DNA of 23,263 nt. Source: a virus. Below are positions 3,347-23,263 of the stretch, piece by piece (within the stretch, counting starts at the first letter, position 1; every line of letters begins with the position of its first letter). The notes under the pieces were generated by a model that ran no database searches, was not told where the DNA came from, and was given only the letters and a program-made list of their open reading frames with translations. The position numbers were made by a program, and so were the translations under genes. The stretch is taken from positions 1 to 23,263 of IMG/VR virus record IMGVR_UViG_3300028735_000271; one strand, 5' to 3'.

Positions 3347-3368
3347 CTGAGATTACAATTCTATGAAG

Positions 3369-3655
3369 TGAACTACCAAGCTCTTAAAAGAACTTGGCTT
3401 ACGAAATCTAAATATCTAAGAATTTTTCACGATTCACAACAGTATCACCAATCACGTCATGTGTTGTGATCCCTCGAGCAGCGTCTCCCCGCACTTGAAT
3501 TTGCTCTGTTCCGGAACTATTTGATTTTTTAATTAACTGCTTTACATTTATATCAGATGATGTAATATGGGAAAACGCATAAAAGAATAGGCTAACGTCT
3601 CCCAATGTCCACGCCCTCGAAGGCATGTGGTTTTAGGAAGACGATTCCATTATAA
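3369..3655 (+). ncRNA. HEARO/omega-RNA-like repeat element, copy 1 (diverged)
   Basis: The most diverged of four related non-coding elements. It begins at a GTGAAC junction with TGAACTACCAAG, whose CCAAG pairs with CTTGG to form the first hairpin. It then shares blocks with the other copies: TTTTTCACGATTCAC, AATCACGT, GCGTCTCCCCG, TGTTCCGG, ATTTATAT, AGATGATGTAAT and the end block GGTTTTAGGAAGACGATT. The right end falls about four bases before the stop codon of the gp13-like gene on the other strand. HEARO RNAs are known to begin at ATGA/GTGA and to accompany IscB nucleases, hence the call. No nuclease ORF is present. The repeat itself is certain; the RNA family is an inference. Confidence 0.6.
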
Positions 3656-3658
3656 AAG

Positions 3659-4511: not shown

Positions 4512-4685
4512 ATGAACAACGCTAAAGAACTGGCATCTGCTGCCCTGTTGTTTTTGGAAACTGCCAATGGTTGTTTAACTGAAATCCATTATGATCATTT
4601 GCAAGATGCCATCTGCCAGCATTTGGGAGATGATGCGGTAGAAGCTATGTTGTTTCAAAAACTAAGTAAACTATCAAGAGTCTAA
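4512..4685 (+). CDS. 57-aa hypothetical protein
   Basis: A short gene, product MNNAKELASAALLFLETANG followed by an acidic helical stretch (DHLQDAICQHLGDDAVEA). It is probably an all-helical soluble protein and has no known family that I can name. A TTGACA/TAAATT promoter ends just before the ATG and there is no ribosome site, the same tight architecture as at 14165 and 21761. It is divergent from the gp13-like gene. Its stop is followed five bases later by the inverted left-end remnant of the repeat family. Confidence 0.55.
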   Translation: MNNAKELASAALLFLETANGCLTEIHYDHLQDAICQHLGDDAVEAMLFQKLSKLSRV

Positions 4686-4689
4686 GAAC

Positions 4690-4703
4690 CCTTGGTAGTT
4701 CAC
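4690..4703 (-). repeat. Inverted left-end remnant of the repeat family
   Basis: CCTTGGTAGTTCAC is the exact reverse complement of GTGAACTACCAAGG, the first 14 bases of the elements. It lies 59 bases before copy 2 and in the opposite orientation. Only the left end is recognisable. Confidence 0.65.
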
Positions 4704-4763
4704 AAAGTTAATCAGGACGTTAAACGATCAAATCTCACTATTACAAGCCAAGCAACTATGTGG

Positions 4764-5034
4764 TGAACTACCAAGTGTCTAAAAAAACCCTTGGCTTCAA
4801 GAGCCCCCATGCTCAAGAACTTTTCACGCTTCACAGACGCATCATTAGATGAATCACGTAATTCAACCACGCAAGCGGTGTCTCTCCGTGCTTTAATTCG
4901 GGTTGTTCCGGCCCTATCTTTTATATTTATATTGAAGATGATGTGATACAAAAATGTATACAAAAACAGAGGTAAAGTCACTTTGGATCTCAGCCACTAA
5001 AGATCACTGGGTTTTTAGATGACAATTTATATAA
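4764..5034 (+). ncRNA. HEARO/omega-RNA-like repeat element, copy 2
   Basis: A well-preserved copy. After the GTGAAC junction it shows hairpin 1 (CCAAG...CTTGG), hairpin 2 (GAGC...GCTC in GAGCCCCCATGCTC), hairpin 3 (TGAAT...ATTCA, 4852-4865), and a terminal hairpin GGGTTG-TTC-CGGCCC (4900-4914). TATTTATATT, a GATGATGTGATA block, ACAAAAACAGAGGTAAA and the right-end block AAAGATCACTGGGTTTTTAG follow. There is no ORF longer than about 22 codons and no IscB/TnpB gene. It lies in the intergenic region before the gp14-like gene, and the last bases (ATTTATATAA) match the other copies' ends. The 5' flank would supply the guide if it works like an IscB omega-RNA. Confidence 0.65.
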
Positions 5035-5150
5035 AGCCATCAAAACCCAAACACTACTAAAACTAAGTCATATCTGCTTCTTTGTTATAGAATAGCCCTC
5101 AAGAAATCACGGCACCTGATAAGTAAAAAGTAATCAGGAGTTGTGTGAAT

Positions 5151-6326
5151 ATGCCACGTTTGAGTATGTGGGACGTTCGAAAAAGAAACGATTTTAAGTT
5201 TTTTGATCGTCAAAGTAGGGAATATTTTTATATAGGCGGCACTGCCGTATATGTTCACAAATACACTGGACCCCGAGCATCATCGGATGTTGACACTGAT
5301 ATTCGCCCCGCCGGTGACTGCTCGCAACCCAATTATGCCAGCTCTGATCTAACATCCGAATTGCAAATTCAAGATTTGTTTTTCTTGGAAAACAGAGATA
5401 GAACCTACGATCCCAACATCTATGAATTGCGTGGCATTTATACTGTCAACGACAATGATTTTGATCTTCGCCAGTTTGGTATCTTTTTGAGCAATGATAT
5501 TCTATTCATTCATTTTCACTACAACGACATGTTGGATAGGATGGGACGCAAACTGATGAGCGGTGATGTTTTGGAACTGCCTCACATCAGAGAAAACGCT
5601 TTTCTAGATCCCAACACACCTGCTATCAACAAATATTATGTGATTGAAGACGCCAGCAGAGCTGCTGAAGGGTTTTCAATGACTTGGTATAATCACGTTT
5701 GGCGAGTGAGAGCCAAGCCCATTCAAAATCAGCAAGAATTTTTCGATATTCTCAATTCACAGCCCACTGACGCCGCCGGCAACACGCCATTGGATACCAA
5801 TGTGGGCAACCCCAATGGCACGACCATTGGTGAGGCAGCCATTGGACCCAACAACGATCAAGCAATTTCAGATGCTGTTGATGCACAAGCATCTTCTCAG
5901 ATACCCTATCGAAACTACATACACGGTCATTTGTATCTGTTTCCCTGCACTGACACTTTCAAATACCCTCCCACTCTAGCATTTGGCGATGGCATGATAC
6001 CCAATGGCGCTTATCCAGTGGGACGAGGAATGACATTCCCTCTTGAGCCAGAAGAAGGTGAATATTTCTTGCGCATTGACTATGAACCTTATGTGCTTTT
6101 TCAACGCAAACGCAATATGTGGAAACGCATTGAATTTGCTTGGAACAAGCCCTGGAGTCCAGCCAATCGCGTGTTGGAAACTTTCATCAACAACAACAAT
6201 CAGCATACGGATTCATATAACAATCCATATCCTGAAAAACAATACCTTTCCAAAACTGTTACACCGAAAGAGGATTTTGGAACAGCGTATCCCAATAATG
6301 ACCCCAACGGAGATTGTAAACCATGA
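5151..6326 (+). CDS. 14: Neck protein, T4 gp14-like
   Basis: A 392-aa protein from ATG 5151 with AGGAG ten bases upstream; an in-frame GTG at 5145 is too close to that site. The central part carries the gp14 pattern: FDRQSREYFYIGGTAVYVHK, then DLTSELQIQDLFFLENRDR, DNDFDLRQFGIFLSND, and GRKLMSGDVLELPHIRE. In T4, gp14 forms the neck with gp13 and seals the portal before tail joining. T4 gp14 is 256 aa; this one is longer, with a Gln/Asn-rich insert (about residues 200-245) and a Pro/Asn-rich tail. It is the first gene of an overlapping operon: its TGA overlaps the lysozyme ATG (ATGA). Confidence 0.75.
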   Translation: MPRLSMWDVRKRNDFKFFDRQSREYFYIGGTAVYVHKYTGPRASSDVDTDIRPAGDCSQPNYASSDLTSELQIQDLFFLENRDRTYDPNIYELRGIYTVNDNDFDLRQFGIFLSNDILFIHFHYNDMLDRMGRKLMSGDVLELPHIRENAFLDPNTPAINKYYVIEDASRAAEGFSMTWYNHVWRVRAKPIQNQQEFFDILNSQPTDAAGNTPLDTNVGNPNGTTIGEAAIGPNNDQAISDAVDAQASSQIPYRNYIHGHLYLFPCTDTFKYPPTLAFGDGMIPNGAYPVGRGMTFPLEPEEGEYFLRIDYEPYVLFQRKRNMWKRIEFAWNKPWSPANRVLETFINNNNQHTDSYNNPYPEKQYLSKTVTPKEDFGTAYPNNDPNGDCKP

Positions 6327-8190: not shown

Positions 8191-8229
8191 AAATAGTTGA
8201 CAAATCACCAAGATAATATTAAGTATATT

Positions 8230-8709
8230 ATGAAAATCAACGAATTGGAAACAGACTACAAAATCTATATGGACTTGGATGGGGTTCTTTGTGACTTCGA
8301 AAAGAAGGTTCATGAAATTTTTGGCAAGGAACCAAAAGAAATACCACTAAAAATCATGTGGCGTCGTCTTGCACAGGAGAAGAACTTTTATGGAGGTTTG
8401 GACTGGATGCCAGGTGGTAAAAAAATTTGGAATTATGTTCGCAAATATGATCCCGAAGTTCTAACTGGTGTACCAATGGGCAATTGGGCCCCGGAACAAA
8501 AAAGATCATGGTGTGTTCACCACTTGGGCAAGGATGTCATCGTTCACACGGTATTTGCACGTGACAAGAAAAATTTTGCTGCACCCAATCATATTTTGAT
8601 TGACGACACCGAACGTAACATCAGACAGTGGCAAGAAGCCGGCGGCATTGCAATCCATTACAAAAATGCCGAGCAGGCTATAGCAGAGTTGCAAAAACTT
8701 GGTCTATAA
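8230..8709 (+). CDS. 5'(3')-deoxyribonucleotidase, HAD superfamily
   Basis: A 159-aa HAD phosphatase from ATG 8230; a TTG-initiated longer form would begin inside the upstream TTGACA. Motif I is MDLDGVLCDF (nucleophile D and acid D), motif II the Thr in VLTGVPMG, motif III a Lys in RDKKNFA, and motif IV LIDDTERN. This is the NT5C type, which removes phosphate from dNMPs and could adjust nucleotide pools or salvage host DNA. The N-terminus MKINELETD resembles that of the kinase at 17807 (MKINEI). No ribosome site is visible. Confidence 0.88.
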   Translation: MKINELETDYKIYMDLDGVLCDFEKKVHEIFGKEPKEIPLKIMWRRLAQEKNFYGGLDWMPGGKKIWNYVRKYDPEVLTGVPMGNWAPEQKRSWCVHHLGKDVIVHTVFARDKKNFAAPNHILIDDTERNIRQWQEAGGIAIHYKNAEQAIAELQKLGL

Positions 8710-8748
8710 CAATGGCGATGGGCCCTATAATTTCAAGTGAAAAAAAAA

Positions 8749-9948
8749 ATGAAGATCACTAATCCATACGAAAGCGACCAATCCATTCTATTGAGCTTGA
8801 TTCCGCCTAAAATTTTAAACGACTTGAAGCAAATACGTCAGGCTTTTGAATCAGAAGGCGAGACTGTTCGCTTGGTTGGCGGATCAGTGAGAGACATGCT
8901 TTTGGGTAAAAGCCCAAAAGACTATGACATGGCCACAACTGCCACGCCGGAACAGATGCTGGAGATTAGTAAAAAACATCAACTCAAAACAATTGCTAAT
9001 GGCACCAAGCACGGCGTCATCACATTCAACGTCAATGATGAAAATTATGAAATCACCACATTAAGAACCCAAAGCAATTTCACTGGAAGGCATGCCGATT
9101 TGAAATGGACCGATGATTGGACAAAAGATGCAGAATGTCGAGACTTAACCATCAATGCCATGAGTTTGGGATTGGATGGCAAACTTTATGATTACTTCAA
9201 TGGTCAACAACATTTGAAAAGCGGAGCGATACAATTCGTGGGAGACGCTACTCTTCGTATTGAAGAAGACCACCTGAGAATTCTGCGCTATTTTAGATTT
9301 TTGGGAAAAATCAGCGATCCCAAATTAGATAGAAAAACACTGGATGTTATCAATCAAAATTTGGATGGATTGGAAAAAATATCAGGTGAAAGAATTTGGA
9401 GTGAAGTCAAACAAATACTATTGTCTCCCAATGCAGTAAATGCACTCAGGATCATGTGCAAAACAGAACTGCCACTGTTTTTGGAAATTAAATGTGAAAA
9501 AATCAATCGATTCGCGCAGTTGAGGAAATATACGAATAATCCTGCAACATTGTATGCTATTCTAACTTTGGGTGTTGGAAACATTAACGATTTCAACGCT
9601 TCCAACGAAGAAAAAGCCCTTATCAATTTCATAGATACCAGACGTCAACAGAGAATAACACTGCGGGATTTGAAACTGGGTATGGCTCTAGGTAAGATCT
9701 CTCCAGAGCTGGCTATTGAATCCAGCATAGCTCTAGGATTAACACAAGATGCACAAAATCTTCGCAACTGGGAAATTCCAAAAATTCCAGTGAGTGGCGC
9801 TGACTTGCTGGCCTCAGGGATGAAACCCGGTAAACAAGTGGGAGCAATGTTGAAAAACATCTATAAAACATGGGCCAATTACAATTTCAACCTAACCAAA
9901 GATCAGCTGCTGGAGAAACACAGTTTTGATATATCAACAACTAAATAA
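8749..9948 (+). CDS. cca: CCA-adding enzyme / tRNA nucleotidyltransferase (class II)
   Basis: A 399-aa class II nucleotidyltransferase. Motif A is RLVGGSVRDMLLGK followed by the metal-binding DYDMATTATPE. Then come CRDLTINAMSLGLDG (motif B), GDATLRIEEDHLRILRYFRF (motifs C and D, with the E-D-x-x-R-x-x-R nucleotide template), and a helical tRNA-binding C-terminus. It builds or repairs the 3'-CCA of tRNAs; poly(A) polymerase I shares the fold, but the length and motif D favour CCA addition. ATG 8749 follows a nine-A run; a GTG four codons upstream is an alternative. A TATAAT at 8726-8731 may be its promoter. No tRNA gene is in the window. Confidence 0.88.
   Translation: MKITNPYESDQSILLSLIPPKILNDLKQIRQAFESEGETVRLVGGSVRDMLLGKSPKDYDMATTATPEQMLEISKKHQLKTIANGTKHGVITFNVNDENYEITTLRTQSNFTGRHADLKWTDDWTKDAECRDLTINAMSLGLDGKLYDYFNGQQHLKSGAIQFVGDATLRIEEDHLRILRYFRFLGKISDPKLDRKTLDVINQNLDGLEKISGERIWSEVKQILLSPNAVNALRIMCKTELPLFLEIKCEKINRFAQLRKYTNNPATLYAILTLGVGNINDFNASNEEKALINFIDTRRQQRITLRDLKLGMALGKISPELAIESSIALGLTQDAQNLRNWEIPKIPVSGADLLASGMKPGKQVGAMLKNIYKTWANYNFNLTKDQLLEKHSFDISTTK
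9940..9947 (+). promoter_or_regulatory. Late promoter ACTAAATA
   Basis: ACTAAATA formed by the last codons and TAA stop of the CCA gene. A predicted leader of about 20 bases contains AGGA (9963-9966) before ATG 9973. Confidence 0.5.
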
Positions 9949-19082: not shown

Positions 19083-19343
19083 TGAACTACCAAAGATCAA
19101 AAACCCTTGACTTCAAGAGCCCGCGTGCTCAAGAACTTTTCACGCTTCACAGACGCATCACTAACGGAATCACGTAATTCAACCACGCAAGCGGCGTCTT
19201 CCCGTGCTTTAATTAGGGGCTGTTACAGCCCTATTTTTCATATTTATATTCAATACGAAAACGCATACAAAAACAGGGGTAAAAGTCACCGTGTATCCAA
19301 GCGACTAAAGATCGCTGGGTTTTTTAGGTGACGATTTTGATAA
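19083..19343 (+). ncRNA. HEARO/omega-RNA-like repeat element, copy 3
   Basis: It begins at an ATGAAC junction. Nearly the same as copy 2 through hairpin 2 (GAGCCCGCGTGCTC), TTTTCACGCTTCACAGACGC, AATCACGTAATTCAACCACG and GGCGTCTTCCCGTGC. Its terminal hairpin GGGCTG-TTA-CAGCCC (19217-19231) differs from copy 2 by changes on both sides that keep pairing. TATTTATATT and ACAAAAACAGGGGTAAA follow. The 3' part ends in a terminator-like hairpin, AGCGA-CTAAAGA-TCGCT then GGGTTTTTT (19300-19325). It fills the space between one gene's stop codon and the next gene's late promoter. Its last bases overlap that promoter. No ORF inside. Confidence 0.67.
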
Positions 19344-19346
19344 ATA
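19339..19346 (+). promoter_or_regulatory. Late promoter GATAAATA at the element's right end
   Basis: GATAAATA, seven bases, then ATG 19354; predicted +1 near 19352. The box overlaps the last conserved bases of repeat copy 3. Confidence 0.6.
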
Positions 19347-22742: not shown

Positions 22743-23024
22743 TGAACTACCAAAGGTCTAAAGAATCCTTGGCTTCAAAAGCCAGTGTGCTCAAGAACTT
22801 TTCACGATTCAAAGATCAATCCCGTGAGCGGAATCACTGACAGAATCAAATGATTCAACCCCGTGCGCAGTGCCTCCGTATACTTAAATTCCAGCTGTTC
22901 CTGCTTCGCTTTTCATATTTATATTTAAGATGATGTGATAAAAAACATATACAAAAACGGAGGCAAATTTACTTTGCGTTCCATCAATCAAAGATCACTG
23001 GGTTTTCGGAAAACGATTTGGATA
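22743..23024 (+). ncRNA. HEARO/omega-RNA-like repeat element, copy 4
   Basis: It begins at GTGAAC. Hairpin 1 is CCAAAGG...CCTTGG (bulged A), hairpin 2 AGC...GCT, hairpin 3 GAATC-AAAT-GATTC, and the terminal hairpin retains the TGTTCC loop. An extra 10-15 bases with CCCGTGAGCGGAATCACTG precede hairpin 3. TATTTATATTTAAGATGATG, ACAAAAACGGAGGCAAA and the end block AAAGATCACTGGGTTTT match copy 2. No nuclease gene lies upstream or downstream; 23025-23127 is AT-rich without an ORF. Confidence 0.63.
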
Positions 23025-23127
23025 AATGGAAGCAATCAATTAAAATTTTTTTAAATTTAATATTCATTTCCTATTGTTTTTCAAAAATCATGGCGATTCT
23101 AAAATAATATACACCATATATCAAAAA

Positions 23128-23256
23128 TTAAAATATTTTCATCCAAAGGTATTTACCTGCATCCCAAATCCAATCAAACCCCAATTCCTGAGTAAGCTCA
23201 CGTTCGGTTTTAGACAAATCCACTTCCGGATAGCGCTCTTTGATTCGGTTTTTCAT
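23128..23256 (-). CDS. 42-aa hypothetical protein
   Basis: ATG 23256 to TAA 23128; product starts MKNRIKERYPEVDLSKTERE and ends with a Trp-rich segment (FDWIWDAGKYLWMKIF). The frame stays open to the window edge upstream of the ATG, so a longer protein entering from outside is possible. Basic, soluble-looking, no family recognised. Confidence 0.5.
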   Translation of the reverse strand: MKNRIKERYPEVDLSKTERELTQELGFDWIWDAGKYLWMKIF

Positions 23257-23263
23257 AAAATAT

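Follow-up and report, generated by a model that had tools for sequence, protein, structure and literature searches.

Intergenic repeats in a phage contig are probable non-autonomous IS200/IS605 elements carrying the 3′ end of tnpB

Four related intergenic repeats are present in the window, by which we mean the whole stretch of DNA analysed, a 23,263-base linear viral contig that is an entire record and itself a fragment. Each repeat is very probably a non-autonomous, PATE-like IS200/IS605 element that arose by deletion of most of a tnpB-bearing element. At the level of sequence, the copies form one family with defined ends, a common target motif, homology to the 3′ end of tnpB and a covarying RNA structure; the nuclease gene has been lost, and its remnant is free of coding constraint. 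Mobilisation in trans by a TnpA is most likely, and use of the transcripts as trans guides for a TnpB is possible.

Location, extent and relatedness of the copies

The original prediction placed four plus-strand elements at 3369, 4764, 19083 and 22743. Matches of the window to itself (blastn, E 1e-20 to 1e-72, far above chance) confirmed a repeat family at these places, but neither the exact extents nor the strand could be upheld. We defined the extent of each copy by a TTTAT motif at one end and a conserved end at the other (Table 1). Three of the window copies are 67–81% identical to one another (blastn), and W3369 is more diverged. All four contain common ordered blocks and begin on the plus strand with GTGAAC or ATGAAC, as had been reported; the closing block AAAGATC-CTGGGTTTT, attributed to every copy, was found in three and is absent from the copy at 3369. 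Directly after each copy the plus strand reads ATAAA, which is TTTAT on the element strand.

Table 1. Coordinates of the repeat copies and their parts (window positions unless a contig is named)
Feature	Position	Strand	Remarks
W3369	3368..3651	minus	284 nt, most diverged copy; TTTAT at 3652-3656
W4764	4763..5030	minus	268 nt, focus of the original prediction; very probably a complete non-autonomous IS200/IS605 element
W19083	19082..19339	minus	258 nt; TTTAT at 19340-19344; end is TTCAT
W22743	22742..23021	minus	280 nt; TTTAT at 23022-23026
TTTAT target/TAM motif at left end of W4764	5031..5035	minus	motif common to all left ends seen
W4764 right end	4763..4807	minus	tnpB stop region, terminal hairpin CCAAG..CTTGG, end TAGTTCAC
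W4764 putative omega-RNA (reRNA) scaffold region	4764..4912	minus	overlaps tnpB 3′ relic; region of covariance model R1
Complete sister copy	G006:22576-22845		
Sister copies cut by contig ends	G006:6-199 and G001:5-136		
Left-end-only piece	G006:14417-14518		

Two further IMG/VR contigs from the same metagenome (3300028735), G006 (35.9 kb) and G001 (15.5 kb), the pair of records IMGVR_UViG_3300028735_000018 and IMGVR_UViG_3300028735_000056, carry at least four more copies. One is complete, two are cut by contig ends and one consists of a left end only. That assemblies break at copies suggests that the genome contains many more of them. The four window copies share one DNA strand, and so do the three on G006, amid genes that face both ways. 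Such an orientation is easier to reconcile with single-strand, replication-linked transposition than with a transcriptional role.

Two observations concern the surroundings of the copies. A near-perfect palindrome, GTAAACTATCAAG...CTTGGTAGTTCAC, at 4666-4703 on the plus strand resembles the right-end hairpin in opposite sense; it lies 60 nt from W4764, at the end of a 57-aa plus-strand ORF (4512-4685), and is possibly a relic of a right end. The right-end flanks of W4764 (4743-4762) and W19083 (19064-19081) are alike (AGTYGCTTGGYT..) and also resemble an arm of the left-end hairpin, which may reflect nested insertion or similar target sites.

Anatomy of the element and its relationship to tnpB

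The informative strand is the minus strand and not the plus strand. On it, the alignment of seven copies starts 5′ with TTTAT, after which the element opens with NNAAATCGTC..TAAAAACCCAGTGATCTTTAGTCGCTTGG and an AT-rich stretch; its 3′ part contains, in order, GGAACAGCCCAATTAAAGCACGGGGAGACGCC, TCTGTGAAGCGTGAAAAGTTCTTGAGC...GCTCTTGAA, GCCAAGGGTTCTTTAGACCCTTGG and TAGTTCAC, where the element stops. The parts of the element are thus a TTTAT target, a left end whose TnpA-type hairpin has the loop TCTTTAG, approximately 60–90 nt of AT-rich left-end sequence, the last 110–130 nt or so of tnpB, two hairpins, and GGTAGTTCAC abutting the flank. Left (CCCAGTGA-TCTTTAG-TCGCTTGG) and right (CCAAGGGT-TCTTTAG-ACCCTTGG) hairpins are sub-terminal and imperfect. 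The left hairpin has decayed in W22743; both ends and the terminal hairpin are complete in all four window copies. TTTAT was found at each of the six left ends seen, the right flanks are all different with none beginning TTTAT, and there is no target duplication. Nor are there terminal inverted repeats, the ends TTTAT and TTCAC being unrelated by inversion.

The shared hairpin loops, fixed TTTAT, TTCAC end and lack of target duplication together indicate an IS200/IS605 layout, in which hairpins are sub-terminal, terminal inverted repeats are absent and a fixed target is used without duplication. Members of that family also encode a Y1 TnpA and/or TnpB. The repeats hold only a relic of the tnpB 3′ end, and we therefore file them as non-autonomous derivatives. 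PATEs, as defined in PMC3119063 and PMC7290912, have near-terminal palindromes like IS605-type ends, no transposase gene and fused terminal sequences, and all of these features are present; the terminal inverted repeats and target duplication of MITEs in the strict sense are absent. The tetranucleotides at the hairpin feet, TAAA before the left and TGAA before the right hairpin, could pair with TTTA and TTCA respectively. In our reading such pairing could fit the guide-sequence scheme for TnpA site choice set out in PMC7290912. The ATGA/GTGA start, which had been equated with the junction of HEARO RNAs, is the IS200/IS605 right end, TTCAT/TTCAC, read in reverse complement.

A minus-strand reading frame runs through the 3′ half of the element (for example, ...APIKARGDAAHGVEARDSVSDASVNREKFLSMGALEAKG..), with a stop codon in or beside the terminal hairpin in several copies. 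The frame is open in W4764, G6b and W3369, and is interrupted by stops within the relic in W19083 and W22743. Substitutions are distributed about equally over the three codon positions (0.187/0.178/0.144), indicating that the relic is not a maintained protein. The RNA structure of the right end covaries. Among 23 sequences, both partners change in 24 of the 36 pairs, and 91.6% of cells are paired, against 30–43% when the pairing is slid, figures that lean towards the model because the alignment was fitted to the model's own structure. In the terminal stem alone, several positions show at least four pair types. Folding of whole single elements on either strand was no better than folding of shuffled sequences, and the structure is visible only in the alignment. 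The conserved region spans the tnpB 3′ end and the right end and stops at the element boundary, which is the layout of a reRNA.

DNA patterns and a covariance model connected the repeats to TnpB. Scanning IMG/VR for the right end together with SVK(Q/R)E codons led to the intact TnpB genes L010, L011 and L012, in which the stop codon TAG lies inside GGTAGTTCAC. A protein search then identified L048-L052, related TnpB loci that form a cluster and have in common the stretch beyond the final conserved domain, the terminal hairpin and GGTAGTTCAC or a sequence close to it, with TTTAT at the left boundary in four of the five. An nhmmer search with the seven copies matched tnpB 3′ ends (L049, 9.2e-5; L048, 2.1e-4). 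The covariance model R1, built from the seven copies only, performs better: it matches 3′ ends of tnpB that close at TTCA, namely L049 (3.6e-7) and L048 and L010 (1.2e-6), further matches being L051 (1.6e-5), L050 (3.5e-5), L052 (2.4e-4) and, weakly, L042. Matches to L048-L052 are always on the tnpB strand. W4764 itself, as a training member, scores 158.6 bits at 4764-4912.

Among the matches listed, the strongest outside match to R1 is L147 (87.1 bits, E 4.4e-16, all 148 model positions), a locus fetched because of its hairpin-end pattern, which supplies part of that score. This locus covers the end of an intact TnpB, about 409 aa long, which scores 290.6 bits with NCBIfam guided_TnpB and has the Pfam domains OrfB_IS605, TNB and HTH. 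Its element of 1,384 nt, preceded by TTTAT and ending in GGTAGTTCAC, lies at L197:1820-3203 in contig G012 (IMGVR_UViG_3300031566_000011). The C-terminus of the L147 TnpB, NRQKFQSNMSLEAK followed by the stop, aligns with the relic, NREKFLSMGALEAK; the left-end hairpin has a loop of the same kind (TTCTTTAGA), and the stretch AGTGATCTTTAGTCGCTTGG in its right-end hairpin has exactly the sequence of the left-end hairpin in the G6b copy. Judged by these alignments, the G012 element is of the parent type for the window copies. The same contig contains an IS607-type serine recombinase gene (L197:5243-5701) 2 kb downstream of the tnpB element.

Searches with the relic or the element itself were negative: the short translated relic had no matches in Pfam, NCBIfam or PDB, the 38-aa relic none by tblastn among phages and plasmids, and the element none by blastn among phages. 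The pattern AAGAAYTTTTCACGNTTCA also gave chance matches (L022-L025, L027), and two matches in genome_contigs (L020, L021) look like chance.

Host phage and right ends in other viral contigs

Structural genes in the window resemble those of Agrobacterium phage Atu_ph07 (490 kb) and Sinorhizobium phage Phosso (469 kb). The phage is a relative of Atu_ph07. Genomes of its cultured relatives measure 469–490 kb, and the window probably represents a few per cent of the phage genome. Neither the TnpB (PF07282) nor the Y1 transposase (PF01797) profile matched the window or its two sister contigs, all of them fragments, and the IscB N-terminal domain RRXRR (PF14239) had none in G000, G001 and G006, likewise fragments. 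The earlier statement that the window lacks a Y1 transposase agrees with these searches. That the phage is without any IscB or TnpB is an unsupported extension of it, since a 23,263-base fragment does not allow the absence of TnpB or TnpA from the phage to be judged. In Atu_ph07 and Phosso, the closest cultured phages, PF07282 matched nothing, and R1 nothing below E 0.6. The homologous gap between gp143 and gp142 of Atu_ph07, which lies upstream of the tail genes, measures 68 nt and contains no element. No element-free sites or close relatives of the insertion sites were found in IMG/VR. Nor did any of the three contigs have a TTTAT-adjacent target for the putative guides, the best agreement being 11 of 16.

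Other genes in these contigs deserve mention. Deoxyribonucleotidase and tRNA nucleotidyltransferase-like genes lie among phage structural genes at 8197-9948 of the window. A repeat-rich homing endonuclease gene family (phrog_3339, DUF7487) is represented at 23128-23263 of the window (minus strand), where a C-terminal piece reaches the window end, and at G006:22906-24963, 4865-5642 and 34129-34906; one of these genes adjoins an element copy in G006. Contig G003 (IMGVR_UViG_3300031998_000006, 215 kb) has 13 PF07282 matches above the family cut-off and a single Y1 transposase.

Viral contigs often contain right ends of this type. R1 finds five places in G018 (IMGVR_UViG_3300042332_001447, 95.8 kb; loci L198, L199, L200 and L201 are involved): one closes an intact tnpB that scores 418 bits against a TnpB profile, a further two are certain orphans, and contig ends cut the remaining two. 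Each certain orphan has more than 1.6 kb of upstream DNA, and its right end, or omega-RNA, is nearly the same as that of the intact tnpB. Another orphan right-end RNA lies in an unrelated short viral contig (L009:1680-1771, R1 E 1e-4); its right end is the same, and its terminal stem is fully paired but different in sequence. Scanning for TCTTTAG-N3-9-GGTAGTTCAC gave, among the matches listed, 83 sites, 33 of them with TnpB upstream; many of the other 50 are chance or coding matches, and we claim no orphan frequency from them. Five viral contigs among the matches listed (L080, L094, L096, L100 and L122) contain possible minimal elements of about 45–50 nt, consisting of TTTAT, 10–20 nt, one hairpin with a TCTTTAG loop, and GGTAGTTCAC, as if the left end were fused to the right-end hairpin.

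Mechanism, alternatives and comparison with known systems

In the mechanism we propose, a TnpA from another element, elsewhere in the phage, in a co-infecting phage or in the host, would excise the element as a single-strand circle and paste it 3′ of TTTAT. Transcripts continuing past the right end would serve as TnpB guide RNAs, each with a guide of 16–20 nt derived from the flanking phage DNA. A matching TnpB acting in trans could then cut element-free sites, helping the element to spread or persist.

Whether the copies still do anything is a separate matter, and that they are dead relics, old insertions no longer moved or transcribed, is a serious possibility, though we lean against it. It is compatible with the IS200/IS605 identity, and divergence of 11–33% among copies, decay of the W22743 left hairpin, the relic stops in W19083 and W22743 and the left-end-only piece of G006 all speak for it; the 67–89% identity of the copies gives no sign of recent movement. 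Against it, all four window copies are whole at both ends and in the terminal hairpin, and the stems still pair while their sequence changes. Copies kept as working guides, whose RNAs a phage or host TnpB or a nuclease-dead TldR would load in trans to cut rivals or silence genes, would account for a scaffold that is conserved and covarying throughout beside an unconstrained protein relic. TnpB-like guides acting in trans have been suggested for TldR loci (PMC13418256), and G018 has an intact tnpB together with two certain orphans of nearly the same right end. We nevertheless think this unlikely: each copy has a different flank as its would-be guide, none of these flanks has a match on the contigs, no nuclease was found on the contig fragments, and the conservation is also expected if ancestry under TnpA and TnpB alone had shaped the ends. 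More improbable still is a dispersed array, in which dozens of omega-RNA-only mini-elements, each guiding to its own site, would serve one trans-acting TnpB, cutting insertion-free co-infecting phages and driving the set through the population.

Other readings set the IS200/IS605 identity aside, and we give them very little credence. A conserved minus-strand protein of 65–89 aa would be in keeping with the frame open through W4764, G6b and W3369, but it is scarcely credible given the stops in the other two window copies and the even codon-position substitutions, and because its sequence is that of a TnpB tail without the catalytic parts. Terminators or promoters with no relation to a transposon would explain why every copy is intergenic and has hairpins; the homology to transposon ends and an orientation that follows the DNA strand whichever way the neighbouring genes run make this highly improbable. 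The original prediction itself, of HEARO RNAs, the omega-RNAs of IscB, on the plus strand and guiding an IscB encoded elsewhere, is now close to untenable. It drew on the GTGAAC/ATGAAC start. HEARO RNAs are likewise OMEGA RNAs of IS200/IS605-superfamily elements, and the prediction was right as to kind, in that the copies are orphan guide-RNA-bearing pieces of that superfamily, probably moved in trans. Family and strand were wrong, however: the check it proposed, a search with RF02033, gave no match at E ≤ 10 on either strand of the window and the two sister contigs, no RRXRR domain was found, the plus-strand fold is no better than shuffled sequence (z = −0.67), and the full tnpB and right-end identity lies on the other strand and with another nuclease.

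The non-autonomous IS200/IS605 elements described here closely resemble published ones. A PATE-like element described in Halanaerobium hydrogeniformans, which retains the final 58 nt of tnpB and the whole right end (PMC7290912), and the PATEs of Haloquadratum walsbyi (PMC3119063) likewise combine a left end, no tnpA, the last part of tnpB and a whole right end; they too have near-terminal palindromes without terminal inverted repeats, are too short for a transposase and are presumed to be moved in trans. Those elements reside in a bacterial and an archaeal chromosome, whereas the window copies belong to a phage contig, where they recur at intervals of roughly 6 kb. With the G012 element the window copies have in common TTTAT, a left hairpin with a TCTTTAG-type loop, the right end GGTAGTTCAC, the omega-RNA region (R1, 87 bits) and the TnpB C-terminus, but they measure 258–284 nt and lack its full TnpB. 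The reRNA of ISDra2 comprises the tnpB 3′ end, the right end and about 16 nt of flank (PMC8612924). The 3′ half of our elements corresponds to this guide RNA, and in both cases the target motif equals the insertion-site motif. ISDra2 differs in being a full IS with tnpA and tnpB, in its TAM, TTGAT as against TTTAT, and in that the function of its RNA has been demonstrated, that of the window copies being putative.

Transposase-less leftovers of this kind are already known; what is new is their location in a giant phage, their copy number, the retention of the whole guide-RNA part and a testable pairing of tnpB with orphans. Correcting the HEARO/IscB assignment to TnpB also shows that GTGAAC starts on a plus strand can mirror an IS200/IS605 right end. 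The window adds a multi-copy, phage-borne set of elements consisting of the TnpB guide-RNA part only, and G018 is a second phage contig in which such elements occur beside a matching intact tnpB. This pairing makes it testable, within one genome, whether non-autonomous elements use TnpB in trans for their persistence.
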